From positions 3,418,319 to 3,482,318 of the forward strand of contig NC_088194.1 in the NCBI RefSeq assembly GCF_028769735.1: a stretch of DNA of 64,000 nucleotides, read 5' to 3'. Shown one piece after another: positions 13,501 to 64,000 of this stretch (position 1 is its first letter; the number at the start of each line of letters is the position of its first letter). Source of the stretch: Zonotrichia leucophrys gambelii. Lineage: Eukaryota > Chordata > Aves > Passeriformes > Passerellidae. A model generated the notes under the pieces. That model was not told the DNA's origin, searched no databases, and saw only the letters and a list, made by a program, of their open reading frames with translations. Both the position numbers and the translations under genes were made by a program.

Positions 13501-16500
13501 ATTATCCCGGTGTTTTCCAGGTGTGCTCGGCGTGCCCCATGATCCCGGTGTAATTCCCAGGATTCCATAGGTTATCCCGGTGTTTTCCAGGTGTGCTTGG
13601 CGTGCCCCATGATCCCGGGTGTAATTCCCAGGATTCCATGATTATCCCGGTGTTTTCCAGGTGTGCTCGGCGTGCCCCATGATCCCGGGTGTGATTCCCA
13701 GAATTCCATAATTATCCCATTTTCCAGGTGTGCTCGGCGTGCCCCATGATCCCGGGTGTGATTCCCAGAATTCCATGATTATCCCGGTGTTTTCCAGGTG
13801 TGCTCGGCGTGCCCCATGATCCTGGGTGGAATTCCCAGAATTCCATAATTATCCCATTTTTCCAGGTGTGCTCGGCGTGCCCCATGATCCCGGTGTGATT
13901 CCCAGAATTCCATAGATTATCCCAATGTTTTTCCAGGTGTGCTCGGCGTGCCCCATGATCCCGGGTGTGATTCCCAGAATTCCATAGATTATCCCATTTT
14001 CCAGGTGTGCTCGGCGTGCCCCATGATCCTGGCCAACCGCTGCAGCTTCAGCGCGCACCAGCGCATGCACCGCAGCCGCCCGCCCCACGTGTGCCCCGAG
14101 TGCGGGGGCAACTTCCTGCTGGCCAACTTCGAGTCGCACCTCAAGGAGTCGTGCCTGCACTTCTCGCGCAGGGTGGGCTACAGGTACGGAGCCGGGGAAC
14201 CCGGGAGTGCCGGGAATTCCACGGGGGCCACTGGGGAGGTGCAGAAATGGGGTTTGCCCATGGAATGCGGGGGAATTTCCTGCTGGACAGCCTGGAGTCC
14301 CAGCTCAGGGAGCTCTCCCGCAGGGTGGGCTACAGGTACGGAGCCGGGGAGCCGGGAGTGCCGGGAATCCTTGTTTGGGGTCCTGGTTCCAGTTGGAATT
14401 GTCCCTGAACTGCTTTGGGATCCTGGTTCCAGTTTGGAATTCCCAGAACCATTTGGATCCCAGTTTCCACTGGGAATTTTCCCTGAACTGGTTTGGGATC
14501 CTGGTTCCAGTTTGGAATTCCCAGAATCATTTGGATCCCAGTTTTCACTGGGAATTTTGCCAGAACCGGTTTGGGATCCTGGTTCCAGTTGGGATTCCCA
14601 GAACCATTTGGATCCCAGTCTCCATTGGGAATTTTCCCTGAACTGGTTTGGGATCCTGGTTCCAGTTGGAATTTTCCCTGAACTGGTTTGGATCCCGGTG
14701 TCCATTGGGAATGCCCAGAACTGCTTTGGATCCCAGTTTTCACTGGGAATTTTCCCTGAACTGGTTTGGGATCCTGGTTCCAGTTGGGATTCCCAGAACC
14801 ACTCTGGATCCCAGTCTCCATTGGGAATTTTCCCTGAGCTGGTTTGGGATCCTGGTTCCAGTTGCAATTCCCAGAACCATTTGGATCCCAGTTTTCACTG
14901 GGAATTTTTCCAGAACTGCTCTGGATCCTGGTTTCCATTGAGAATTTTCCCAGAAGAGCTTTGGATCCCAGTCTCCGTTGGGAATTCTCCCAGATCTTTT
15001 TTGGGATCCTGGTTCCAGTTGGGAATTCCCAGAACCATTTGGATCCCGGTTTCCATTGGGAATTTTCCCAGAACCTCTTTGGATCCCAGTCTCCATTGGG
15101 AATTCTCCCAGAACCGGTTTGGGATCCTGGTTCCAGTTGCAATTGCCAGTCCCGCTCTGTGTCCCGGTCTCCGTTGGGAATTTTCCCAGTCCCGCTCTGT
15201 TTCCCGGTCTCCGTTGGCAATTCCCAGTCCCGCTCTGTGTCCCGGTCTCCATTGGGAATTCTCCCAGTCCCGCTCTGTGTCCCGGTTCCCATTGGCAATT
15301 CCCAGCCCCGCTCTGTGTCCCGGTTCCCATTGGCAATTCCCCCAGCCCCGCTCTGTGTCCCAGTTCCCACTGGGAATTTTCCCAGTCCCGCTCTGTGTCC
15401 CGGTCTCCGCTGGCAATTCCCCCAGCCCCGCTCTGTGTCCCGGTTCCCAATGGGAATTTTCCCAGTCCCGCTCTGTGTCCCGGTTTTCACTGGGAATTTT
15501 CCCAGTCCCACTCTGTTTCCCGGTCTCCATTGGCAATTCCCAGTCCCCGCTCCGTGTCCCAGTCTCCGCTGGCAATTCCCCCAGCCCCGCTCTGTGTCCC
15601 GGTCTCCATTGGGAATTTTCCCAGTCCCGCTCTGTTTCCCAGTATCCGTTGGCAATTCCCAGCCCCGCTCTCCCTGGCATTCTCAGGTGTCCCAGCTGCT
15701 CCGTGGTGTTCGGGGGCGTCAACTCCATCAAGTCGCACATCCAGAGCTCGCACTGCGAGGTTTTCCACAAGTGCCCCATCTGCCCCATGGCCTTCAAGTC
15801 GGCGCCCAGCGCCCACGCCCACGTGTACACGCAGCACCCCGGCTTCAGCAACCAGCAGTCCAAGTGAGTGCTCGCGGGGTCCCCAAATCCCCCCAAAACC
15901 CCCCAAAATTCCCTGGAATTCCACAGATCCGCACAGGGTCCCGGGGAGCCGCTCGGGTTCGTCCTGGAAAGGTTGGGGCGGGAGGTTTGGGAATGAGAGA
16001 GGTTGGGATGGGAGGTTTGGGAACGAGAGCTTTGGGAATGAGAGATTTGGATGGGAGATTGGGGAACGAGAGCTTGGGATGGGAGGTTTGGGAATGTTTT
16101 GCTGTGGGAATGCGAGGTTGGGAATGAGAGATTTTGGAATGAGAGGTTGGGATGGGAGGTTTGGGAATGTTTTGCTGTGGGAACGGAGCTGGCTGGGACA
16201 TTTGGGAATGTGGCCCTTGGGAATGATCCCAGAGGGCTTTTCCTGCCTGAGCCATTCCAGGATTGGGAGAACTGGGAATATTTAACTCCCACCTCCCTTT
16301 TTCCATCCTTTTTTCCCCTCTTCTTCCCTCCTTTTCCCCTCCCTTTTCTGTTTTTCCCTTGTTTTTTCTCTGTTTCCCCCCTCCTTTCCCGTCTCCTTTT
16401 TCCTCCCTTTCTCCTCCCCTTTTCCTCCTTTATCCTTCCCTTTTTTCTTTCCTATTCCCTCCTTTTCCCTTCCCTCATTTCTCTCTTTCCCCTCCATTAT

Positions 16501-48745: not shown

Positions 48746-48889
48746 GAACAAGCCCAAGGCGCCCCGCGGGTTCCGCGTTAACCAAAATCGGCGATTTCGG
48801 GGCAAAATCGCCTCGGATGTCGCTATCACCACCCGAGGGGCGGGGGTGGGACGGGTTGTCCCCCCACTTGTCAGTGTCCTCTTCCACTG

Positions 48890-49035
48890 CGCCGTGTCCC
48901 CTCCCCGCTCCCAGTGTCACCTTCCCACTGCGGCGTGTCCTCTTCCCACTCCCAATGTCCCCTCCCCAGTGCCAATGTCCCCTCCCCGCTCCCGGTGTCC
49001 CCTCCCAGTGCCAATGTCCCCTCCCGGTGCCCGGG
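48890..49035. repeat. CCCCTCCC(A/G)GTGCCAATGT repeats
   Basis: About 8 units of 15-20 bases just downstream of the RFX5 poly(A) signal. Confidence 0.8.
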
Positions 49036-49080
49036 CTCACAGACACACAGCCACACGGCAGTAACTGGTTTTTACTGGTT

Positions 49081-49086
49081 TTTATT
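49081..49086 (-). terminator. RFX5: RFX5 poly(A) signal overlapping the stop codon
   Basis: Minus strand CACCAATAAA: the stop TAA (49084-49082) lies inside AATAAA (49086-49081). This is the first signal after the coding end. The 3' UTR would be extremely short. Confidence 0.6.
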
Positions 49087-52000
49087 GGTGTGACGCAGGG
49101 GACCCCGTCCCTGTGCCCGCCCCCGTGTGTCCCTGCGTGTCCCCGAGGGGGGACCCGGCCGGGCTGTGACCGCGCTGTGCCAGGGCCGCCGGTGCCACCC
49201 TGGTGCCCGTCCTGCCATCCCTGATGACACTGACACGGACGGGAGGGACAGGCCTGTCTCCAGGGGTGGCACTGCCACTGCCAGGCCTGTCCCCAAGGGT
49301 GGCACTACCCCTGGACGGGCACTCCCGGACAGGGATGGTGGCACTGCCACTGACCGGTGTGTCCACTATGGGGGGAGTGCCAGTGACGTGCCTGCCGTCC
49401 CCAGGGGTGGCACTGCCCCTGGATGGGCACTCCCTGACAGGGATGGTGGCACTGCCACCCACTGACCCGGCCCCAAGAGGGAGGGTGGCACTGTCACGGG
49501 ATGGGCACTCCCTGATGGGGACAGTGGCACCGTCCCTGGATGGGCACTCTCTAATGGGGACGGTGGCACTGTCCCTGGACGGGCACTCTCTGACAGGGAT
49601 GGTGGCACTCTCCCTGGATGGCCAGTCCCCACCAGGGACGGTGGCACTGTCCCCAGACAGGCACTCCCTGACAGGGATGGTGGCACTGCCACAGGCCAGC
49701 GTGTCCCCGAGGGGGAGGATGGCACGGCCGGGCACCCTGGACTCCACGATGGTGGCGGTGACCCTGGGGATGGAGTCCCCAACGAGGACGGTGGCACTGA
49801 CGAACACGGGCGTGTCCACGATGGTGGCAGTGCCCCGGGACAGGCTGGCCCTGACGGGGACGGTGACACTGCCCAGGATCCTCCTGTCCACCACGGTGCC
49901 ACTCAGGGTCACCAGCGCGTCCACGATGGCGGCGGTGCCCCGCGACGGGCAGTCCCGGACGGGGAAGGTGGCACTGCCAGCGCCCGCGCTGTCCCCAGCG
50001 GTGCCCCAGGCCCAGAAGGGGCTGTCACCCACAGTGACGGTGGCACTGCCGGTGACGGGCGTGTCCACGATGGTGGCAGTGCCCCTGGATAGGCTGTCCC
50101 TGACGGGGACAGTGGCACTGCCAGGGACCGGCCTGTCCCCAGGAGTGTCACTGCCCCTGGAGAGACAGTCCCTGCCAGGAGGGGTGCCACTGTCACTGAC
50201 CGCCCTGTCCCCAGCAGTGCCACTGTCACTGACCACCCTGTCCCCAGTGGCGCCACTGTCAGTGAGCAGCCTGTCCCCAATGGTGCCACCACCACTGACC
50301 GGCCTGTCCCCACTGGTGCCACTGGTAGTGACCAGCCTGTCCCCAGCGGTGCCACTGTCACTGACCACCCTGTCCCCAGCGGTGCCACTGACAGTGACCA
50401 GCCTGTCCCCAACGGTGCCACCACCACTGACCGGCCTGTCCCCAACAGGGACAGTGGCACTGCCACTGGATGGGCTGTCCCTGTCCCTGATGGGGACAGT
50501 GGCACTGCCAGAGACTGGCACATCCCTGACCGTGCCACTGCCCCCAGCTGGGCTGTCCCTGGCAGGGACAGTGGCACTGCTCCTGCCCAGCCTGTCCCCA
50601 GGGTCAGGGGCCCTGGGTGACCTGTCCCTCATGGGCACGGTGGCACTGTCCCTGACCAGTCTGAGCCCGCTGCCACTGGCCCTGGGTGACCTGTCCCTGA
50701 TGGGGACACTGCCACTGCCCCGCCTGTCCCCAGCGGTGGCACTGCCCCTGCCCGGCCTGTCCCCGCTGCCATTGTCTCTGGGTGACCTGTCCCTGATGGG
50801 GACGGTGGCACTGCCCCTGCCTGGCCTGTCCCCACTGCCACTGTCTCTGGGTGACCTGTCCCTGACAGGGATGGTGGCACTGCTCCTCACTGACCTGTCC
50901 CCAATGGTGACACTGCCCCTGACTGACCTGTCCCCAGTGGTGGCACTGCTCCTCACTGACCTGTCCCCTGGGGTGGCACTGCCCCTGCCCAGCCTGTCCC
51001 CAGGGGTGGCACTGCTCCTCACTGACCTGTCCCCAACAGCAGTGGCCCTTGGTGAGCTGTCCCTGACAGCGATGGTGGCACTGCCAGACACTGGCTTGTC
51101 CCTGACAGGGACAGTGGCACTGCCCCTGGCTGTGCTGTCCCCAGTGGTGGCACTACCCCTGACCAGCCTGTCCCCAGGGGTGGCAGTGCCAGGGACTGGC
51201 CTGTCCGCAGGGGTGGCAGTGCCCCTGGCTGCGCTGTCCCTGACAGGGACAGTGGCACTGCTCCTGACTGACCTGTCCCTGGTGGTGCCACTGGCTCTAG
51301 CTGACCTGTCCTTGACAGGGCCAGTGGCACTGCCACTGTCTGAGCTGTCCCTGATGGGGACAGTGGCACTGCCCCTGATCAGCCTGTCACTGATGGGGCC
51401 ACTGCCCCTGCCTGGCCTGTCCTCGACAGGGACGGTGGCACTGCTCCTGCCTGGCCTGTCCCCACTGGTGGCACTGTCTCTGGGTGACCTGTCCCTGCCG
51501 GGGACACTGCCACTGCCACTGCCCCTACCTGGCCTGTCCCCACTGGTGGCACTGTCTCTGGGTGACCTGTCCCCAGTGGTGGCACTGCTCCTGCCTGGCC
51601 TGTCCCCACTGGTGGCACTGTCTCTGGGTGACCTGTCCCTGCTGGGGACACTGCCACTGCCCCTACCTGGCCTGTCCCCACTGGTGGCACTGCCAGGGAC
51701 TGGCCTGTCCCCAGTGGTGGCACTGTCCCTTGGTGACCTGTCCCTGCCGGGGACACTGCCACTGCCCCTACTTGGCCTGTCCCTGACAGGGACGGTGGCA
51801 CTGCTCCTGCCCAGCCTGTCCCCACTGCCACTATCTCTGGGTGACCTGTCCCTGATGGGGACGGTGGCACTGCCCCTACCTGGCCTGTCCCCACTGCCAC
51901 TGCCTCTGGGTGACCTGTCCCTGATGGGGACAGTGGCACTGCTCCTCCCTGGCCTGTCCCCAGCAGTGGCACTGCCCCTACTCAGCCTGTCCCCAGTGGT

Positions 52001-55000
52001 GGCACTGCTCCTGGAGCTGTCCCTGACAGGGACAGTGGCACTGGCAGTCACCGCTTTGTCCCCAGTGCCACTGCCCCTTGGTGAGCTGTCCCTCCTAGGG
52101 ACAGTGGCACTGCCACAGACTGGCTTGTCCCTGACAGGGATGGTGGCACTGCCACTGACTGACCTGTCCCCAGTGCTGGCACTGCTCCTCACTGGCCTGT
52201 CCCCAGGGGTAGCACTGCCCCTGGATGAGCTGTCCCTGACAGGGACAGTGGCACTGCCACCAGCTGGGCTGTCCCTGCTGGGAATGGTGGCACTCCTGGT
52301 GACCGGCCTGTCCCCAACACTGCCACTGGCTCTGGGTGAGCTGTCCCTGACAGGGACGGTGGCACTGCCAGTGACAAGCTTGTCCCTGACAGGGACAGTG
52401 GCACCACTGACCGGCCTGTCCCCAGTGGTGGCACTGCCCCTGGATGAGCTGTCCCTGACAGGGACGGTGGCACTCCTGGTGACCGGCCTGTCCCCTGTGG
52501 TGGCACCGGCCCTGGGTGAGCTGTCCCTGACAGGGATGGTGGCACTGCCCCGGGATGAGCTGTCCCCAGGGGTGGCACTGCCCCTGGCCCGATTGTCCTT
52601 GACTGGTGTGGTGCCACTGCCACCAGCTGGGCTGTCCCTGACAGGGACAGTGGCACTCCTGGTGACTGGCCTGTCCCCAGTGGTGGCACTGGCCCTGGGT
52701 GAGCTGTCCTTGACAGGAACAGTGGCACTGCCACCAGCTGTGGGGACAGTGGCACTTCTAGTAACCGGCCTGTCCCCACTGGCACTGGCCCTGGGTGAGC
52801 TGTCCCTCCTAGGGACAGTGGCACTGCCACGGACTGGCTTGTCCCTGACAGGGACAGTGTCACCACTGACTGGCCTGTCCCCACTGGTGGCACGGCCCCT
52901 GGATGGACTGGCCTTGAGAGGGACAGTGGCACTGCCACCAGCTGGGCTGTCCCTGCTGGGAATGGTGGCACTCCTGGTGACCGGCCTGTCCCCAGCAGCG
53001 CCACTGGCTCTGGGTGAGCTGTCCCTGACAGGGACGGTGGCACTGCTGGGGACAGGCCTGTCCTCCGTGGTGGCACTGCCAGTGACCGGCCTGTCCCCAG
53101 TGCTACCGGCCATGGGTGAGCTGTCCTTGACAGGGACAGTGGCACTGCCAGTGACCAGCCTGTCCTCTGTGGTGGCACTGCCAGTGACCGGCCTGTCCCC
53201 AGTGTCACTCACCCTGGCTGGGCTGTCCTCAGCAGGGCTGGTGGCACTGCCAGTGTCTGGCCTGTCCTCTGTGGTGGCACTGGCAGTGAGCAGACTGTCC
53301 CCAGTGTCACTAACCCTGGCTGGGCTGTCCTCTGTGGTGGCACTGGCAGTGAGCAGCCTGTCCCCAGTGTCACTGCCCTTGGGTGAGCTGTCCCTGACAG
53401 GGCTGGTGGCCCTGACAGTGACAGGCCTGTCCCCAGTGCCATCGACCCTGGCTGAGCTGTCCCTGACAGGGCTGGTGGCACTGACAGTGACCGGCCTGTC
53501 CCCAGTGTCACTGGACATGGCTGGGCTGTCCTTGACAGGGACAGTGGCACTGCCAGGGACTGGCTTGTCAATGACAGGGACAGTGGCACTGCCACCACCA
53601 GGAGAGCCACAACTGGGGGAGTTGGCACTGCCACTGAGCGGGCTGTCCCCAAGGGGGACAGTGGCACTGACTGAGCTGTCCCCAAGGGGCACGCTGGCTC
53701 TGCCACTGAGCGGGCTGTCCCCAAGGTGGGTGGTAGCACTTCCCCCAGCTGGGCTGTCACTAAGGGGGACGGTGGCACTGCCACCAGCAGCAGAGCCATC
53801 ACCAGGGATGCTGCCACTGACTGGGCTGTCCCCAAGGGGAGTGGTGGCACTGCCCCCAGCCAGGCTGTCCCCAAGGGGAGTGGTGGCACTGCCACTGACG
53901 GAGCTGTCCCCAGGGGGGACAGTGTCATTGCCACTGACCAGGATGTCACTAAGGGGAACACTGGCACTGCCATTGTCCCCAAGGGGGATAGTGGCACTGC
54001 CATTGACCGAGTTGTCCCCAAGGGGGATGGTGGCACTGACACTGACCAAGCTGTCCCCAGGGGGTACAGTGGCACTGCCATTGACTGAGCTGTCACAAAT
54101 GGGGACACTGGCACTGACACTGACTGAGCTGTCCCCAAGGGGAACAGTGTCAGTGCCATTGACCGGGCTGTCACTAAGGGGGACAGTGGCACTGCCATTG
54201 ACCAGGCTGTCACTAAGGGGGACACTGGCACTGACACTGACAGAGCTGTCCCCAAGGGGAACAGTGTCAGTGCCACTGACCGGGCTGTCACTAAGGGGGA
54301 CAGTGGCACTGCCATTGACCAGGCTGTCACTAAGGGGGACAGTGGCACTGACACTGACTGAGCTGTCCCCAAGGGGAACAGTGTCAGTGCCATTGACCGG
54401 GCTGTCACTAACGGGGACAGTGGCACTGCCATTGACCAGGCTGTCACTGAGTAGGACGCTGGCACTGACTGAGCTGTCACTAAGGGGGACAGTGGCACTG
54501 CCATTGACTGGGATGTCCCCAGGGGGGACAGTGGCATTGCCATTGACTGAGCTGTCACTAACAGGGACAGTGGCACTGCCCCCAGCCGGGCTGTCACTAA
54601 CAGGGACGGTGGCACTGCCCCCAGCCGGGCTGTCACTAAGGGGGACAGTGGCACTGCCATTGACTATGGTGTCACTAACAGGGACGGTGGCACTGCCCCC
54701 AGCCGGGCTGTCACTAACAGGGACAGTGGCACTGCCATTGACTATGGTGTCACTAACAGGGACAGTGGCACTGGCCCCAGCCAGGCTGTCACTAACAGGG
54801 ACAGTGGCACTGCCATTGACTGAGCTGTCACTAACAGGGACAGTGGCACTGCCATTGACCAGGCTGTCACTAAGGGTGGCAGTGGCACTGCCATTGTCCC
54901 CAAGGGGGACGGTGGCACTGCCACTGCCCGGGCTGTCCCCACCAGTGACCGTGTCACTGTCCACCTCCATGCTGTCCCCGGCATCCTCAGCAGCACCGCC

Positions 55001-58000
55001 AGCCCCCCCGCTGTCCCCGCCGGGCACGGTGGCACCGCCAGCCCCGGGTGGCGCCCCCGGGGGCGAGTCCCCTCCGTCCTCCCCCCGGGCCACCTCGGGC
55101 TCCTCGGGCTCCGCCGCGCTGTCCCCCGGCCTCTTGCGGGGCCTCCCGCGCCGCCGCTTGCGCGCGTTGCCGTCCGCGGCCGCGCCCTCGGGAGCGCGCT
55201 TGGCGGCGCGGCCGCGCTGCTGCTGCGGCTGCTGCCCCTCGCCGTCCCTCGGCGTCTCGGCCGCGGGCGCGGGCACGCCCACGCCGGGCAGCAGCACGTT
55301 GAGCACGGGGATGGCGGCGGCGCCCACGGGCAGCGGCAGCGCCACCTTCACGGTGCCCGCGGGCCGCGGCACCAGCACGGGCGGCGCGGGCGCCGCGCCG
55401 GGCACGGGCGGGCGCTGCGGGGCCGGGATGCGGGGCAGCAGCAGCGGCAGCCGCGCCACCAGCGCGCTCACCTGCGGGCTGCTGCCCGCCCGCGCCGCCT
55501 CCGGCTTCTTCTTCTCCGGCCGCGGCTGCGCGGGGACCTTGGCGACAGCGTCCTTCTTGGCCTGGGGAGGGGACAGGGTGGCACCGGGCTGGGGGCGCCG
55601 CCGGTGCCCGCCTGGGGAGGGGTTCCGGGGGTCTCACCTGCTCCTGGCTGCTGTCAGCGGGGTCCGGGCCGGTCTTCTTGGGGGCTGAGGGTGGCCGGGG
55701 GTCCTGGGGGGGCTTGTCCGTGTTGTCTGTGGGAGGAGGGGACGTGAGCAGGGTGACACTGGGGATGGTGGCACTGGGGAGGGGACACGGGGAGTGGGGA
55801 GGGGACATTGGGAATGGAAGGGGACACTGACAAGGTGGACGACAACCCATCCCACCCCCCACGATGTCTGTCCCCAGGGGTGACACTGTTCTAGGAGACT
55901 GACTGTGTCCCCAGGGGTGACACTGTCCTCAGGGGGGTTACAGTGTTCTAGGGGGCTGACAGTGTCCCCAGGCAGTGACAGTGTCTGTCCCCAGGGGGTG
56001 ACAGCATCCCCAGGGGGGTGACAGTGTCCCCAGGGCTGGTGGCAGCCCCGGTGTCCCCGGGCTGACCTGAGAGCACCGTGGCCATGAGCAGGTCGGCGTG
56101 GGCCGAGCGGGGGCTGATGATGTGCTGCTGCAGCAGGAACTGCGCCACCTCCACGATGTTGTTGAAGGAGCGCCGCAGGATCTTCTCGGCCCAGTCACAC
56201 GTCAGGGCACACGCGGCCTCCGTCACCTCGGCGCTGTACGAGTGCGCCAGCTCGGCCAGCTCCGCCTGCTGGGGACGGGGACAGGGACATCACTGAGGGG
56301 ACAGGGACAGGGACACTCTCACTGTCACCTCACTGCTGCTGTAGGAGTGAGCCAGCTCGGCCAGCTCCGCCTGCTGGGGACAGCACAGGGACAGGAACAG
56401 GGACATCAGACAGGGACAGGGTGTGAGACCAGGGACAGGAGGATAGCAGGGAGGGGACAGCAGGAGGGTCACGGTGTCAGGATGGGGACAGCAGGAGGGT
56501 CAGGGAGCAGGGCAGGACACAGGGATGAGCCCATGGAAAAGGATGGGACACTGGGATGGGGACAGGAGGGGACACCAGGATGGGGACGGGATGGGATTCA
56601 TGGAGCAAGGCAGGACCTGCATCCCACCAACCCACCGCATCCCACTGTCCCATTATCCTATACGTGTCCCACTATCCACTTCCGCTATCCCACTTATCCC
56701 CCAAATCCCGTCCATTATCCCACCCAAACTCACCGTCTCGGTCACTTTGAGGTCCAGGCTGGGCAGGGGAGGAAGGCTGACCACGGTCTTCCTCCGGATC
56801 CCCCCATAGCAGTACGTTGGGAAGAGTCAAGGATTTTTCCCGAGCCCAAAACACCGGGAACCAACCCCTGAAGAACCCTCAGGAATGGGAAAAACTGGGG
56901 GAAACCAGGAAAAAGAATAGGAAAAAATGGGAAAAAATGTGAAAAAAACAGGGGAAAAAAGAGCAGCTGGCACAGGAATTCCAGGCCAGGGAAGGATATT
57001 TGGACTGGCCGCGGCCCCCCAGGCGCCGGGCTTTGATGTTTGGGAAGATCTCGCGGATGATCTTGCCGAAGTTGGCCGTGCTCAGCGGGCGGCAGCCCAG
57101 GTTGTCACAGTAACGCCTGCGGGGACACCGGCGGTGACACGGAGCAGGGACAGGGCAGGGGGACACAGAGCACATCGGGGACACCGGGGGTGACTCGGAG
57201 CACCCGGGGACAGGGCACGGAACGGCGGGGCAGGGGGACATGGGGACAGCAGGACAGGGGGACACAGAGCAGATCAGGGACAGGGTAGGGAACAGCAGGG
57301 CAGGGGGACACAGGGACATGGGGCACCAGGACAGGGGGACATGGGGCAGCAGGACACGGCAGGGAATGGCAGGGCTGGGGGACCTGGGGATGTAGGACAG
57401 CAGGACAGGGGGACAGGGAGGACGAGGACAGGGGGTCCTCAAGGACACTGGGACATGAGGACAGGGGGTCCCCAGGGAGGTGAAGACACGGGGACAGAAG
57501 GACAGGGGTTTCTAAGGGACGTGGTGATATGGGACACCAGGACAGGGGGGTCCTTGGGACACGGTGACACGGTGACGCGGGACAGCCCGGCTCACTTGTA
57601 GGCGTCATAGACGTCCTGCTTGGGCAGGCAGGTGTCCGTGTGCTCCTCCAGGTGGTTGCGGATCCAGCTGCAGGCGTGCATGTGCTCGGCCGTGCCCAGC
57701 GTGCTCAGCTCCAGCGAGGAGGAGCTGCTGCTGCTGCTGGGGGGACAGGCAGGGAGGGGAGCCCGTCAGCACCTCTGTGCCAGCGCCTCCGGGTGAGGGA
57801 CCTGCCCTGGGGCATCCCTGTGCCAGCTCCAGCCCCATCCCATCCCACCCCATGGATCCCATCCCACCCCATGGATCCCATCCCACCCCATCCCATCCCA
57901 CCCCATAGATCCCATCCCATGGATCCCATCCCACCCCACCCCCAGACCCCACCCCGGGTCCCCCCTGACCTCTTCTCGCCCAGGCTGGGCCCCGAGGGCA

Positions 58001-58572
58001 GTTGCAGGTACAGGTAGAGTTTGTCGCTGTCCGAGAACTTCTGCACGTCCTGCTGCGCTCCGGGACAAGGACAGGGAGAGGGAGAGGAGGAGATGGAGAC
58101 GGATCCCGTGGGGCGAGCCCCAGGACAGCCCTGCCCTGCCCCAGCATCCCCACAACACTCACCAGGATGGAGTCCACCTTGCTCTGCACGGATTTGCTGC
58201 GGGGAGAGAGGCCACGAGTGAGGAACGATCCCAAAAACCCCGGGATCGCAATTCCGGCTCTACCCAGGGCTCCTCAGGTCCCCCCAGAGCCCGAGGGGGA
58301 CCCAGGATGGACCCCAGGGCTCAGAGATCCAGGATGGATTCAGGAGGGATCCAGGATGGATCCAAGATGGAATTCCCAATCCCCCACCCATGAGCCCCCT
58401 CTGGGTTGGGGGATTGGAGGAATTCCCAGATTTTGGGGCGCTGCCCTTACGAGATGTTGCCGCGGAGCTCCTGCAGCAGCGTGCTGGACTCGGTGGCACC
58501 GCCCCGGGCACTGCCAGCTGACAGAGGGCCCCTCCTGGTGGCCCTGGTGCCCAGCTCCTCCTCCTCAGCCAT
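49082..58572 (-). CDS. RFX5: RFX5 (regulatory factor X5) with a giant C-terminal repeat domain
   Basis: DNA-binding subunit of the RFX complex (with RFXAP and RFXANK) that binds the X box of MHC class II promoters. Exons in transcript order: 58572-58451 (start [12 protein letters not shown]), 58196-58163, 58052-57970, 57736-57596, 57116-57000, 56815-56734, 56268-56067, 55726-55638, 55561-49082. The sum is exactly 2,450 codons with stop; human RFX5 is 616 residues as I recall. Seen: oligomerisation helix [34 protein letters not shown] winged-helix domain [59 protein letters not shown]-type docking motif [47 protein letters not shown]. The C-terminal [10 protein letters not shown] resembles human KVSVIKGSR. 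Confidence 0.93.
49270..54960 (-). repeat. RFX5: In-frame coding minisatellite of RFX5 (39/33-base units)
   Basis: About 150 units. Two types are seen: a 13-residue one of the form [13 protein letters not shown] and an 11-residue one of the form [11 protein letters not shown]. Every unit length is a multiple of three, so the frame stays open for about 1,900 residues. N-terminal units favour SDSPVNG/SDSLVNG, central ones [14 protein letters not shown] and [10 protein letters not shown]-terminal ones RECPSRD. The encoded segment is low-complexity, rich in S, T, R, D, G and P, with no cysteine cluster or membrane segment; it is predicted disordered. Confidence 0.93.
55740..56040. repeat. GGGGTGACAGTGTCCCCA repeats
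   Basis: Degenerate 18-30-base units in the RFX5 intron between exons 56067 and 55726. The motif resembles the coding minisatellite (GGGACAGTGGCAC), so the two may be related. Confidence 0.7.
56332..56378 (-). repeat. Copy of the 5' edge of RFX5 exon 56268-56067
   Basis: CCCCAGCAGGCGGAGCTGGC followed by CGAGCTGGCTCACTCCTACAGC repeats the acceptor and first ~40 bases of the exon ([12 protein letters not shown]) about 110 bases upstream in transcript sense. The acceptor is intact; the reading frame stays open for a short distance only. Confidence 0.92.
56816..56999 (-). other. RFX5: U12-type AT-AC intron in RFX5
   Basis: No AG lies at the 3' end required by the protein. The exon ends CAGTCCAA (57000), the intron begins ATATCCTT (56999-56992), a TCCTTGAC branch motif lies at 56833-56826, and the intron ends CCCAAC before exon GTACTGC (56815). 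Joining restores the codons for QSKYCYGG. The branch A is about 11 bases from the 3' end, as expected for minor-spliceosome introns. Confidence 0.88.
57120..57955. repeat. Repeats in RFX5 introns
   Basis: 57120-57590: GGGGACAC(A/G)GGGACA-type units. 57835-57955: CCCATCCCACCCCATGGATCC units. They flank exon 57736-57596. Confidence 0.8.
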
Positions 58573-58637
58573 GGCAGCCCTCTGTGTGTCCTGCAGGGGA
58601 AATGGGAATCTGGGGTAAAAACGGGAATAAATCCCAT

Positions 58638-58702
58638 TTTAGGTGCCCTTCCTGGTGGCCCTGGTGCCCAGCTCCTCTTCCTCAGCCATGGCAGCCCTGT
58701 CC
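58638..58702 (-). repeat. Duplicate of the RFX5 start-codon exon
   Basis: The acceptor, start codon and the next ~45 coding bases ([13 protein letters not shown]) are repeated 117 bases upstream in transcript sense: ATG at 58689-58687. The copy then ends in KGT and a stop at about 58640 and has no donor. Confidence 0.93.
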
Positions 58703-58839
58703 TGCTGAGAACAGGGACAATTTGGGGTAAAAAGGGGAGTAAATCCCATTCTGGGCTCTAATGGGAATCGTGGGCACGGACAGGGGCCACGGAAATGGGA
58801 CAGGGAGACCGGCAGTGACCCCGGCAGGGCTGGGGACAG

Positions 58840-60925: not shown

Positions 60926-61143
60926 CGGGAATGGCCCGGCGGACCCCGAACCCCGAAATCACCCGAGGGGACCCCAAAGCAGGAATCCCCCGTGGGACCC
61001 TAAAGCCCAGAATCACCCGGGGCACCCCAAAGCCCCGATCCCCCCCAGCCCCATCACCCGGGGCACCCCACAGCCCCAATTTCCCCCCGGGACCCCGATC
61101 CCGCCCCGGCGCCGTTTGCCGAGCGCGGCGCTGCCGGCGCCGC

Positions 61144-64000
61144 TCAGGGCAGGGTCACGGACTTGGCATCGCCGCCGGGGAAGCGGATCTGGTGCGCCAG
61201 GCACGGCCCGTTGGGCTCCTTGCCGAAATCCACCAGGAAGTTCTTGTTGACGCTCAGGCCGCCCTTGTCCGTGTCCACGTCGAGCTGCAGCATCACCGAG
61301 CCCTCCCTGCGCGGGGACAGCGGCGGCTCAGGGCGACAGCGACCCCCGCGCCCGGGGCCAGCGGCACGGGCTGGGATGGGGGCGGCTGGGGGTCCGCAAT
61401 TCCCGATGGAGGGGACAGGATGGGCACAGGGACACCTTTGGGTCCCCAGCTCCCTCAGGACGGGCACGATTCCATTCAGGAGGGGCTCGGGGCCGTTTCC
61501 CCTCCCCAGCTCCCTCAGGACGGGCACAAATCCATCCAGGACGGGCTCGGCGCCGTTTCCCCTCCCCAGCTCCCCCGGGCTCGGCTCAGGCTCTGCCCGC
61601 CCGGCCAGGCCGGACCCCCTTGCGCTGAGCTCAGCCCGGGCTCTGCCCGATCCCGACCCGGCCGGCAGCGGCTCCGGGGCAGCCCCGGGGGGGTCGCGGC
61701 CCCTTCCCCGCTCCCACCCTGGCCCGGGAAGCCCCGGGCAGCCGGGAGGGGCTCACTTGATCAGGCTGGGGTAGAACTGCCGGTCCCAGGTGCTGTAGAA
61801 GGAGTTGGTCACGTAGAGCCGCTTCCCGTCCAGGCTCAGCTGCAGCGCGGCGGGGCCGCCGTACACGCGCTTGCACTGGGACACAGGACTGGGGTTATTG
61901 GGGGCACTGGGACACAGGACTGGGGGCACTGGGGCTGGATTCCAGCAGGGGCACTGAGAGCAGGCTCAGGCTCATGGTCAGGTGAGGACACACACTCACA
62001 CTCAGGTGAGCACACACACTCACACACAGTCCCACACTCACGCTCACCCCCGGTCCCGCCCCCCCGCCCCGCCCGGAGCTGCAAGCCCCGCCCCAGCCCC
62101 GCCCAGACGCGCCGGCCCCGCCCCGCTCACCTTGACCACCAGTGGCTCGGGCTGGCACTTGAGCTCCTCGTCCCTGCACACGGTCACGGGGCCCCCTCGC
62201 AGGATGCTGCCCCCCACGAACACCTGCAAGGGCCGCGCTGGCACACGAGCGTTCCCCGGCCCGGCCCCCCGGGCCCCCCGGCCCCGCTCGGCCCCCCGGC
62301 CCGGCCCTGCCCCTCACCTGCCCCACCAGCCGCGGCTTGCAGCTCCGCGACAGCTCGTACTGACGGATGTCCCCGTGCAGCCAATTGCACACGTACAGGA
62401 ACCGGTCGTCCTGGCTGATGACGAGGTCCACGATGAAGGCTGCGGGCAGAGCCGGGGCTCAGGGGCACGGCCAGCACCGGGGGAGCCCACACGGGCCAGC
62501 CCTGAGATGGGCTTTGGGACAGGGACCAGGACTTTGGGCTCGGTCAGCATTCGGGCTCAGTAATCATTTGGCGTCAGCCTTGATTTGGGTCAGTCAGGAT
62601 TCAAGGTCACCCCGCAGGATTCGGGGTCCCCCAGCCGGCTCTGGGGTCCCCCCGCAGGCCGTGCCCGGCTGCAGAGCTCGCCCAGCCAACAGGAATGCCA
62701 CCCCCGAGGGCACACGCACCCGGCATCTTGGGCATGATCCAGCCCGACACGTCCTTGGCCGGGATCCGGATCACTTCCTCCACGGCCCAGTTGTCTCTCT
62801 GCACAGGGACACCGAGCCCGGCTCAGCCCGCGCTGCCCCGGCCCGAGCCGAGCCGAGCCGGGCACGACGGGCTCAGCCCCCGCACCCTCCCCGGCCCCGC
62901 TCCCGCTCCCCGCCGCCCCGCACTCGCCTCGCAGGATTTGTAGAAGCGGAAAATGGCCCCGCTCAGGGCACAGCCCACGTAGCCCTCGGCGGCCTCGGGG
63001 TTGTGCAGGAAGCGCACGGTCATGGGCAGAGAATCCTCGCCCAGGTCGAAGCACTGCGTCAGGCTGCGGCACGACAGGTTCCACACGTTCAGGCGGCGGC
63101 CGAAGACCCCTGCGGGACACGCGGGAGAGGCTGGGGGCGGCCGGGGAGAGACCCCCGAGGGGCTCCTGGGGGGCATCGGCACGGGAACGGCGGGAACCGG
63201 GGACGGGGAACTGGGAAATGCGGGAACCGGGGAGGGGGACTGGGAAATGCGGGAACCGGGGAGGGGGACTGGGAAATGCGGGAACTGGGGAGATCACAGA
63301 GTAATACGGGATTTTGGGAGAACACAGGGAAATGCAGCTTTGGGGGCAGCAGGACCCTGCCCACCCGGGGTTCCTCCCCGCCCATCCCCAGCCCGAGCCC
63401 GGCCCAGGCTCCGGCCGCAAATCGGCCTCTCGGGGGCACCGAGCGCTGCCGGCCCCAGCTCAGCCCTGCCGGCGCTGCCACCCGCGTGTCCCCACCTTTC
63501 TTGAGGTCATCGGGGTTGAAGCCGCGCCCGGCCACTCTGGGCACCATCCCGGCCGAGCTGACCAGGACGTTGTGCCGGGCCTGGTACCAGAAGTCGTGCC
63601 CGGTCGGGGGAGCCTCACACTCGTTCTCCCAGTTGCCCTTCAGCTCGAAGGTCTCTCCGTCCAGCACCACGAAGCCACCTGGGACACACGAGGGACGGGC
63701 GGGGACAAATCCAGGCTTCTGCATTTCCAGCGGGACCCCCGGGGTGGGAGTTCGGGCAGGGAAATGGGAATTCGGGCAGCGACATGGGAATTCGGGCAGG
63801 GACATGGGAATCCCGGCAGGGAAATGGGAATCCCGGCAGGGAAATGGGAATTCGGGCAGGGAAAATTTACCTTTGCCGTGGCCAGCGGCGTCGCCCATGT
63901 TGGCGACCAGGACGTCGCCGTTGGGCAGGGGGTGGGTGACGGACAGGTAGCCCTTGTTGCACTTCCAGAACACATCCACGGGCTCGATCATCTGCACGAA
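61144..64000 (-). CDS. SELENBP1: SELENBP1-like selenium-binding protein (methanethiol oxidase family), partial
   Basis: Family members are cytosolic beta-propeller proteins; human SELENBP1 is a methanethiol oxidase. Exons in transcript order: beyond 64000 to 63871, 63678-63496, 63109-62928, 62798-62720, 62439-62318, 62223-62131, 61875-61757, 61306-61144. They give 357 codons including stop; the N-terminal third lies right of the window. Conserved blocks: [118 protein letters not shown]. The segment [20 protein letters not shown] and the SVTLP end differ from human, so this may be a bird-specific or divergent paralogue. One intron appears to be GC-AG. Confidence 0.9.
61430..61575. repeat. ~75-base tandem duplication in last SELENBP1 intron
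   Basis: CCCAGCTCCCTCAGGACGGGCAC(G/A)A.TCCATCCAGGA..GGGCTCGGGGCCGTTTCCCCT occurs about twice, with a partial third copy. Confidence 0.85.
63180..63300. repeat. GGGAACCGGGGAGGGGGACTGGGAAATGC repeats
   Basis: About 4 units of 29 bases in a SELENBP1 intron. A similar GGGCAGGGAAATGGGAATTC array lies at 63755-63860. Confidence 0.85.

Follow-up and report, generated by a model that had tools for sequence, protein, structure and literature searches.

A predicted giant RFX5 in a songbird, with an in-frame minisatellite of 1,898 codons probably translated from its last exon

RFX5 is a master regulator of major histocompatibility complex (MHC) class II genes, a switch gene for immune display, and forms a complex with RFXANK and RFXAP at the promoters of these genes. 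Proteins encoded by variable-number tandem repeats (VNTRs), of the mucin or filaggrin type, are built of in-frame, low-complexity units whose lengths are multiples of three bases, and are mostly secreted or structural. In a 64,000-nucleotide stretch of the Zonotrichia leucophrys gambelii genome (hereafter the window; C26:3418319-3482318, on a contig of 4.04 Mb in an assembly of 1.124 Gb), RFX5 likewise holds tandem units with lengths in multiples of three inside an open coding exon; unlike the mucin- or filaggrin-type proteins, it is a sequence-specific transcription factor. The reading preferred here, with a probability of about 0.78, is that the last exon of the only RFX5 detected carries an in-frame array of 1,898 codons, likely derived from a 13-codon coding segment that was repeatedly duplicated and whose motif occurs once in 46 of 59 measurable bird records, and that the array is translated into a predicted disordered spacer between the DNA-binding half of the protein and its C-terminal tail.

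The closest process described in birds is 'sequence stuttering', for which the main text of a 2026 study (PMC12954441) reports intronic repeats in chicken dot-chromosome genes that sometimes copy exon edges together with their splice sites; in that text, which is based on a screen in chicken and does not name RFX5, the repeats are confined to introns, none crosses into exons and coding regions are intact. The locus resembles stuttering as so described in having local imperfect tandem expansion and exon-edge copies that include the acceptor side. A partial copy of the start of exon 1, with its ATG and acceptor side, lies upstream at 58741-58645 in an intron or 5′-untranslated region (5′-UTR; 85 of 96 aligned bases identical), and a partial copy of the 5′ edge of exon 7 with its CAGCAG acceptor lies at 56393-56324 (62 of 67 aligned bases identical), so partial exon copies with a splice site in the adjacent intron are present in RFX5 too. 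The ATG of the exon 1 copy would open a frame of 16 codons ending in TAA. Unlike the intron-only repeats of that study (PMC12954441), the largest array of the gene is located wholly inside coding exon 9 with its frame kept, and it looks like a coding, in-frame counterpart of avian stuttering. Among the titles and abstract openings covered by a literature search, none was about an RFX5 repeat.

RFX5 is encoded on the minus strand from 58572 to 49082 by nine coding exons, totalling 2,448 codons plus the stop, with GT-AG borders in seven introns and AT-AC in one. Its identity was supported by the piece spanning exons 3-6, which matched PDB entry 8zjr_M ('DNA-binding protein RFX5'; E 1.1e-66) and contained the Pfam domains RFX_DNA_binding (PF02257; E 1.5e-29) and RFX5_N (PF18326; E 2.1e-14), and by the conserved tail VSVI[QR]DGR downstream of the basic motif. 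PF14621, which we take to be the C-terminal RFX5-specific region, had zero matches in the exon 9 frame or in its first 211 codons and none in four other bird RFX5 either, and is thus not discriminating. The features of the locus, by position in the window, are as follows.

58451..58572, minus strand: RFX5 coding exon 1, with ATG at 58572 (open frame; donor GTAAGG).
58163..58196, minus strand: exon 2 (exon model).
57970..58052, minus strand: exon 3, encoding part of the RFX5_N domain (Pfam and exon model).
57596..57736, minus strand: exon 4, encoding the first part of the DNA-binding domain (PDB, Pfam and exon model).
57000..57116, minus strand: exon 5, encoding the RFX DNA-binding domain and followed by an AT-AC, U12-like intron that starts ATATCCTT and ends CCAAC.
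56734..56815, minus strand: exon 6 (exon model).
56067..56265, minus strand: exon 7, with a CAGCAG tandem acceptor, so that its start may be 3 nt earlier (exon model).
55638..55726, minus strand: exon 8 (exon model).
49082..55561, minus strand: exon 9, the last, 6,480 nt in a single open frame to TAA (open reading frame list and exon model).
55127..55150, minus strand: RGRPRKRP basic (AT-hook-like) motif, 5′ of the array (motif search; also in other bird and turtle records).
54929..55126, minus strand: pre-array block rich in G, D and S, whose MEVDSDTV stretch is common to Molothrus and Onychostruthus (sequence comparison).
49235..54928, minus strand: in-frame minisatellite, 5,694 nt or 1,898 codons, with units mostly of 13 and 11 codons (repeat and phase analysis).
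53579..54928, minus strand: first array zone, 450 codons, acidic, with 38 D, 1 R, 0 K and 0 E (composition).
50429..53128, minus strand: middle array zone, 900 codons, of mixed R/D charge, with 141 R, 10 K, 86 D and 2 E (composition).
49082..49234, minus strand: conserved C-terminal tail, from VSVIRDGR to the stop (motif search and comparison with birds and turtles).
49081..49086, minus strand: AATAAA polyadenylation-type signal overlapping the TAA stop (sequence).

As the TAA lies inside the AATAAA, use of this signal would leave only a very short 3′-UTR. The intron at 56999-56816, which separates exons 5 and 6 within the DNA-binding domain, is probably of the U12 type (AT-AC borders, ATATCCTT at its start and a branch-like TCCTTGAC). 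The first-pass annotation had counted nine exons and 2,450 codons including the stop; the exon number holds and the total is one codon fewer, a gap that would fit the tandem acceptor of exon 7.

Exon 9 is preceded directly by AG and its first stop is the TAA at 49082, within a minus-strand open reading frame of 2,183 codons (49082-55633). The motifs RGRPRKRP (residue 427) and VSVIRDGR (residue 2399) are separated by 1,964 residues. The array supplies 1,898 of these and thus accounts for 78% of the 2,448 codons of the predicted protein. The number of units is estimated at roughly 150, each 11 to 13 codons long, and the tripeptide SAT occurs 93 times. Both the in-frame minisatellite of some 1,900 residues and the stop-free exon of 6.5 kb that the first-pass annotation had proposed were therefore recovered, though stop-freeness alone is not decisive. 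No family in Pfam scored above its cut-off in the exon 9 frame, and nothing was found by Rfam at its gathering thresholds in 48800-58800.

The strong evidence for coding comes from phase. Bases are inserted into and lost from minisatellites, and where the repeats are noncoding they fall out of any three-base register. The phase of the array was measured by pairing identical words at least 15 bases apart and sorting their distances modulo 3. All 12-mer pairs in the array were in phase, both at any distance (12,162:0:0) and within 600 bp (4,448:0:0). The window has 28 other arrays that are 300 bp or longer, and by the 600-bp measure every one of them was of mixed phase. The anchor word AGTGCCAC occurs in 91 copies with 90 of 90 spacings being multiples of three, and three further anchor words were fully in phase as well (94/94, 55/55 and 92/92). 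The claim that all units measure 39 or 33 bases is thus right as to multiples of three and too narrow as to length, since the 90 spacings take 19 different lengths among which 39 and 33 are only the commonest. For local alignments of nucleotide sequence between array pieces, the controls were 22 of the 28 arrays (six, mostly short, being excluded): exact runs of at least 10 were in phase in 261 of 261 cases in the array against 278:257:235 in the controls, and 70 of 71 array alignments ended in their starting phase, against 77 of 189.

A wider control, a contiguous 264-kb block of the same contig searched for arrays of at least 300 bp with at least 30 12-mer pairs, yielded 82 arrays, two of which were pieces of the RFX5 array. 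Among the other 80, 77 were mixed and three fully coherent, with control totals of 54,057:50,056:52,820. Two of the three coherent ones are keratin-like frames rich in GYGGS (C26:3293061-3293540 and C26:3297084-3297557), which by their look are real genes and act as positive controls.

The origin of the array was examined in bird RFX5 proteins, for which the best 120 of 597 relatives were taken and 21 set aside (20 from reptiles or amphibians), leaving 99 records, some of them from the same species. The basic motif is present in 68 records, 59 with a recognisable end motif and nine without. In the 59 measurable records the linker between the two motifs has a median of 50 residues (range 31-100), against 1,964 here; the strict unit motif was found once in 46 of them and was absent from 13 (45 and 12, respectively, of the 57 from named birds), and two strict motifs were found in none of the 59. 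A looser pattern gave two copies in seven of the 59, six of these through overlap within one unit. By eye, Calidris pygmaea (P0098) and C. pugnax (P0121) have a short second copy of the unit with its five-residue core doubled, a possible two-copy state, and the falcon records counted as lacking the unit have a near-unit, AISPLGDG. The typical non-passerine linker reads GGGSATSPLGDSPAGG, then SLPTQ or SLPAQ, then VSVIQDGR, and the linkers of Aphelocoma and Lonchura are 44 residues each with one unit. Bird RFX5 records of at least 500 residues (n=70) range from 505 to 738 with a median of 607.5, against 2,448 for the RFX5 predicted here, which would be about four times the usual size. Its computed mass is about 243 kDa, and that of an ordinary bird RFX5 is estimated at roughly 60 kDa. 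In other respects the birds and turtles compared resemble the gene studied here, with RFX5_N, the RFX DNA-binding domain, the RGRPRK basic motif and the VSVI tail, and with one unit in most bird records.

Among the matches listed, the closest relatives are songbirds, the top one being Molothrus aeneus (91% identity, 97% query coverage). M. aeneus and Onychostruthus taczanowskii are among the nine records without the end motif, and both have the extra pre-array MEVDSDTV block. The start of the array aligns in frame with M. aeneus (P0001), with 58% identity over 417 columns, and the gaps in a second alignment mostly correspond to one or more complete 13-residue units; the pre-array block and the in-frame array start are thus alike in the two birds, which differ in unit number and order. 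As 46 of the 59 records have one unit before the conserved tail, the array likely arose by amplification of an ancestral coding segment. The first-pass annotation had proposed such a comparison with other birds, and had read the array as an internal expansion instead of read-through; this reading is upheld by the phase coherence, the lone unit that precedes this tail in the majority of measurable bird records, and the in-frame array start of Molothrus. With bird family relationships as background, the simplest history would be that one ancestral unit was amplified in songbirds once Estrildidae had split off, in the lineage that gave rise to Passeridae and the nine-primaried families, although the Lonchura model could hide an array.

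Other long RFX5 proteins were searched for in two ways. Exon 9 residues 24-200 gave no match among the candidates scored, and the N-terminal 434 residues of a 1,472-residue query, with candidates of about 810-2,576 residues, gave 33 proteins among the matches listed. The only named bird among these 33 is C. pugnax, with a 973-residue protein in which the second half repeats its own RFX5 sequence and no long array is present; a further long RFX5 record may exist beyond the matches listed. The snake Erythrolamprus reginae has an RFX5-like protein (P0123, annotated as RFX7-like) with a tandem coding repeat in the corresponding linker, after the basic motif, and with 15 matches to a seven-residue core; its unit is unrelated to that of the bird array, the repeat is far shorter, and it is likely independent. 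Short GGDSGH-type repeats also stand in the RFX5 linkers of P0049, P0051, P0053 and P0056 (three galliform), which are 63-77 residues in all. The repeats in snake and galliform linkers suggest that the RFX5 linker may tolerate repeats in several lineages.

Several results count against a translated array. Stop-freeness is not unique to the sense frame: stops per frame within the array are 0, 14 and 72 on the coding strand and 41, 0 and 136 on the opposite strand, where a frame at 49170-55688 of the plus strand is open for 2,172 codons. A stop in that frame requires a sense codon for tyrosine, histidine or glutamine, which by codon geometry explains the open antisense frame, as the sense frame of the array holds no tyrosine, no glutamine and two histidine codons. 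Since one antisense frame is equally open, absence of stops is weak evidence for coding, and it was rejected as a proof. Short words are imperfectly coherent (30,458:13:14 for 9-mers, 22,256:0:2 for 10-mers), and four of the 29 spacings of the 7-mer GTCAGTG are out of phase (25 in phase); these out-of-phase pairs and spacings are taken for chance words. The array alignments contain 77 gaps that are multiples of three and 51 that are not (48 and 443 in the controls), so raw gap counts were set aside as ambiguous and the phase of exact runs was used instead; nearly all of the 51 cancel, with 8,944 of 9,086 aligned columns in phase. Finally, the third coherent array of the 264-kb block, 402 bp of 18-bp units, has no evident gene.

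Part of this would be expected if the array were noncoding or a pseudogene, open by chance of composition: besides the open antisense frame, a mixed-phase array of the window is open for 432 codons, and the longest open stretch in a control reaches 612. That explanation is nevertheless judged highly improbable, as phase coherence is seen in no control array of similar size, exons 1-8 are likewise open with usable borders at all eight introns, and the frame is kept in the Molothrus part of the array. The 432-codon frame belongs to a 1.3-kb array at 14373-15671 beside zinc-finger exons that by eye are POGZ- or ZNF687-like; as its phase is mixed, this array is likely intronic.

Further points on the opposing side concern constraint on the amino acids. 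The ratio of nonsynonymous to synonymous substitution (dN/dS) between units, for which nine of the 28 control arrays were used as a comparison, is 0.77 in the true frame (bootstrap 0.64-0.98), against 0.81 and 1.20 in the other sense frames and 0.84-1.29 in the antisense frames, and mismatches between units are even across codon positions (213, 261 and 256), so that no clear constraint at the amino-acid level is seen. As it is not frame-specific, dN/dS was rejected as a proof of coding. Selection appears to guard the reading frame and not the amino-acid sequence.

The public gene models of relatives and the splice potential of the array also have to be set against its translation. The M. aeneus model (738 residues) stops about 244 residues into the array and lacks the VSVI tail, the Onychostruthus model (435 residues) ends before the array or within it, and the Lonchura model (543 residues) has a single unit. 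In exon 9, 11 donor-like sites score at least 8 by a frequency matrix, and ten of these fall within the array, which makes partial removal by splicing possible. Were the array wholly or mostly removed as an exitron or alternative intron, the usual protein would be short, and the phase would reflect a minority isoform or past coding use. Sites scoring at least 8 are about twice as dense in the array as in the first 48 kb of the window (1.76 per kb versus 0.67 and 0.85), and Lonchura has one unit before the tail. At score 9, however, there is no enrichment (0.18 per kb versus 0.12 and 0.42); the Lonchura linker has the same 44 residues as that of Aphelocoma and may be truly short instead of hiding a spliced array; and strict phase over 5.7 kb is unexpected for sequence that is always spliced out, most nearby arrays being mixed. 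Removal by splicing is thus unlikely, though it is the alternative to the translated array that carries most weight.

Inflation or wrong joining of the array in the assembly deserves mention, as bird assemblies reportedly suffer from G+C content and repeats (PMC9516821). In the best local alignments between array pieces, mismatches occupy 15.4% of columns, and the longest exact repeat inside the array is only 76 bp, which makes duplication by the assembly unlikely. No frameshift was seen, though errors would bring them, and Molothrus has the same array start. An artefact is accordingly regarded as very improbable.

A separate RFX5 elsewhere in the assembly was looked for by RFX-domain and RFX5-exon searches, and none was found. 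The RFX-domain search gave nine places, of which only that in the window coincides with RFX5-exon matches, the other eight being judged by this alone; the exon search gave three places in this locus and one on contig C12, 40% identical, which is taken for RFX7. A 601-bp piece of the array had 17 DNA matches in the assembly, 15 of them in the array (itself included), one of which runs about 30 bases past the 5′ end of the array, and no second copy of the array was seen by this search. A dispersed satellite was rejected, as the only two outside matches are short and 69% and 75% identical. By eye, SELENBP1-like exons are present at 61000-64000 on the minus strand, and a fused alligator model (P0145) joins RFX5-like sequence with PF05694 and PF00454, which fits an RFX5-SELENBP1-PI4KB neighbourhood.

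The array is rich in serine, glycine, valine, proline and threonine throughout. The serine-, arginine- and aspartate-rich character claimed at first fits the later part, where arginine is abundant (141 in array residues 600-1500), and fails for the first 450 residues, where arginine is nearly missing (one, beside 38 aspartates). The array includes 61 SP or TP motifs and 15 RDSSPR or RDRSPR motifs. A long disordered spacer is predicted as the plain reading of this composition. Arginine-rich mixed-charge domains, mainly of arginine and aspartate, are reported to enter nuclear speckles (PMC9324279), and the middle zone, with its 141 arginines and 86 aspartates in 900 residues, can be compared with these; as charge in the array is sparse, a link to nuclear speckles is only a lead.

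How such an array could be gained and kept can be sketched. The expansion would use the same local repeat instability that fills the region with arrays; in introns and intergenic sequence, insertions and deletions of any length could survive, while in exon 9 only multiples of three would, as a shift of frame would remove the tail or attach an aberrant one. The VSVI tail is common to other birds and turtles. Frameshifts in a last exon escape nonsense-mediated decay, so that truncated products of exon 9 would persist, and the harm would lie in the missing tail itself. The amino-acid sequence, with somewhat less assurance, would be nearly free to drift, and array length could then change fast. 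A bolder version, which is doubtful if somewhat less so than removal by splicing, is that the tendency of repeats on GC-rich bird chromosomes to be locally unstable has spread into a coding exon of the master MHC class II regulator in one songbird lineage, where selection on frame alone keeps it in place. The outcome would be a giant RFX5 that evolves in length, with acidic and R/D mixed-charge zones that would alter nuclear gathering and so tune MHC class II output.

That a giant RFX5 would be a remarkable regulator of MHC class II is a prediction about the protein. If the translated array is real, a conserved transcription factor has grown about fourfold by one intragenic array, and the array is a candidate exception to the sparing of coding exons reported for stuttering in the main text of PMC12954441. 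It shows what selection seems to require, namely that the frame is kept while the sequence is nearly free. The phase coherence of repeated words offers a simple, RNA-free aid for telling coding from noncoding arrays, and annotation may hide similar cases, since the public gene models of two relatives stop at or inside the array region. Moreover, the RFX5 array allows a direct test of long disordered spacers in an essential immune regulator, and of variation in RFX5 length among songbirds.

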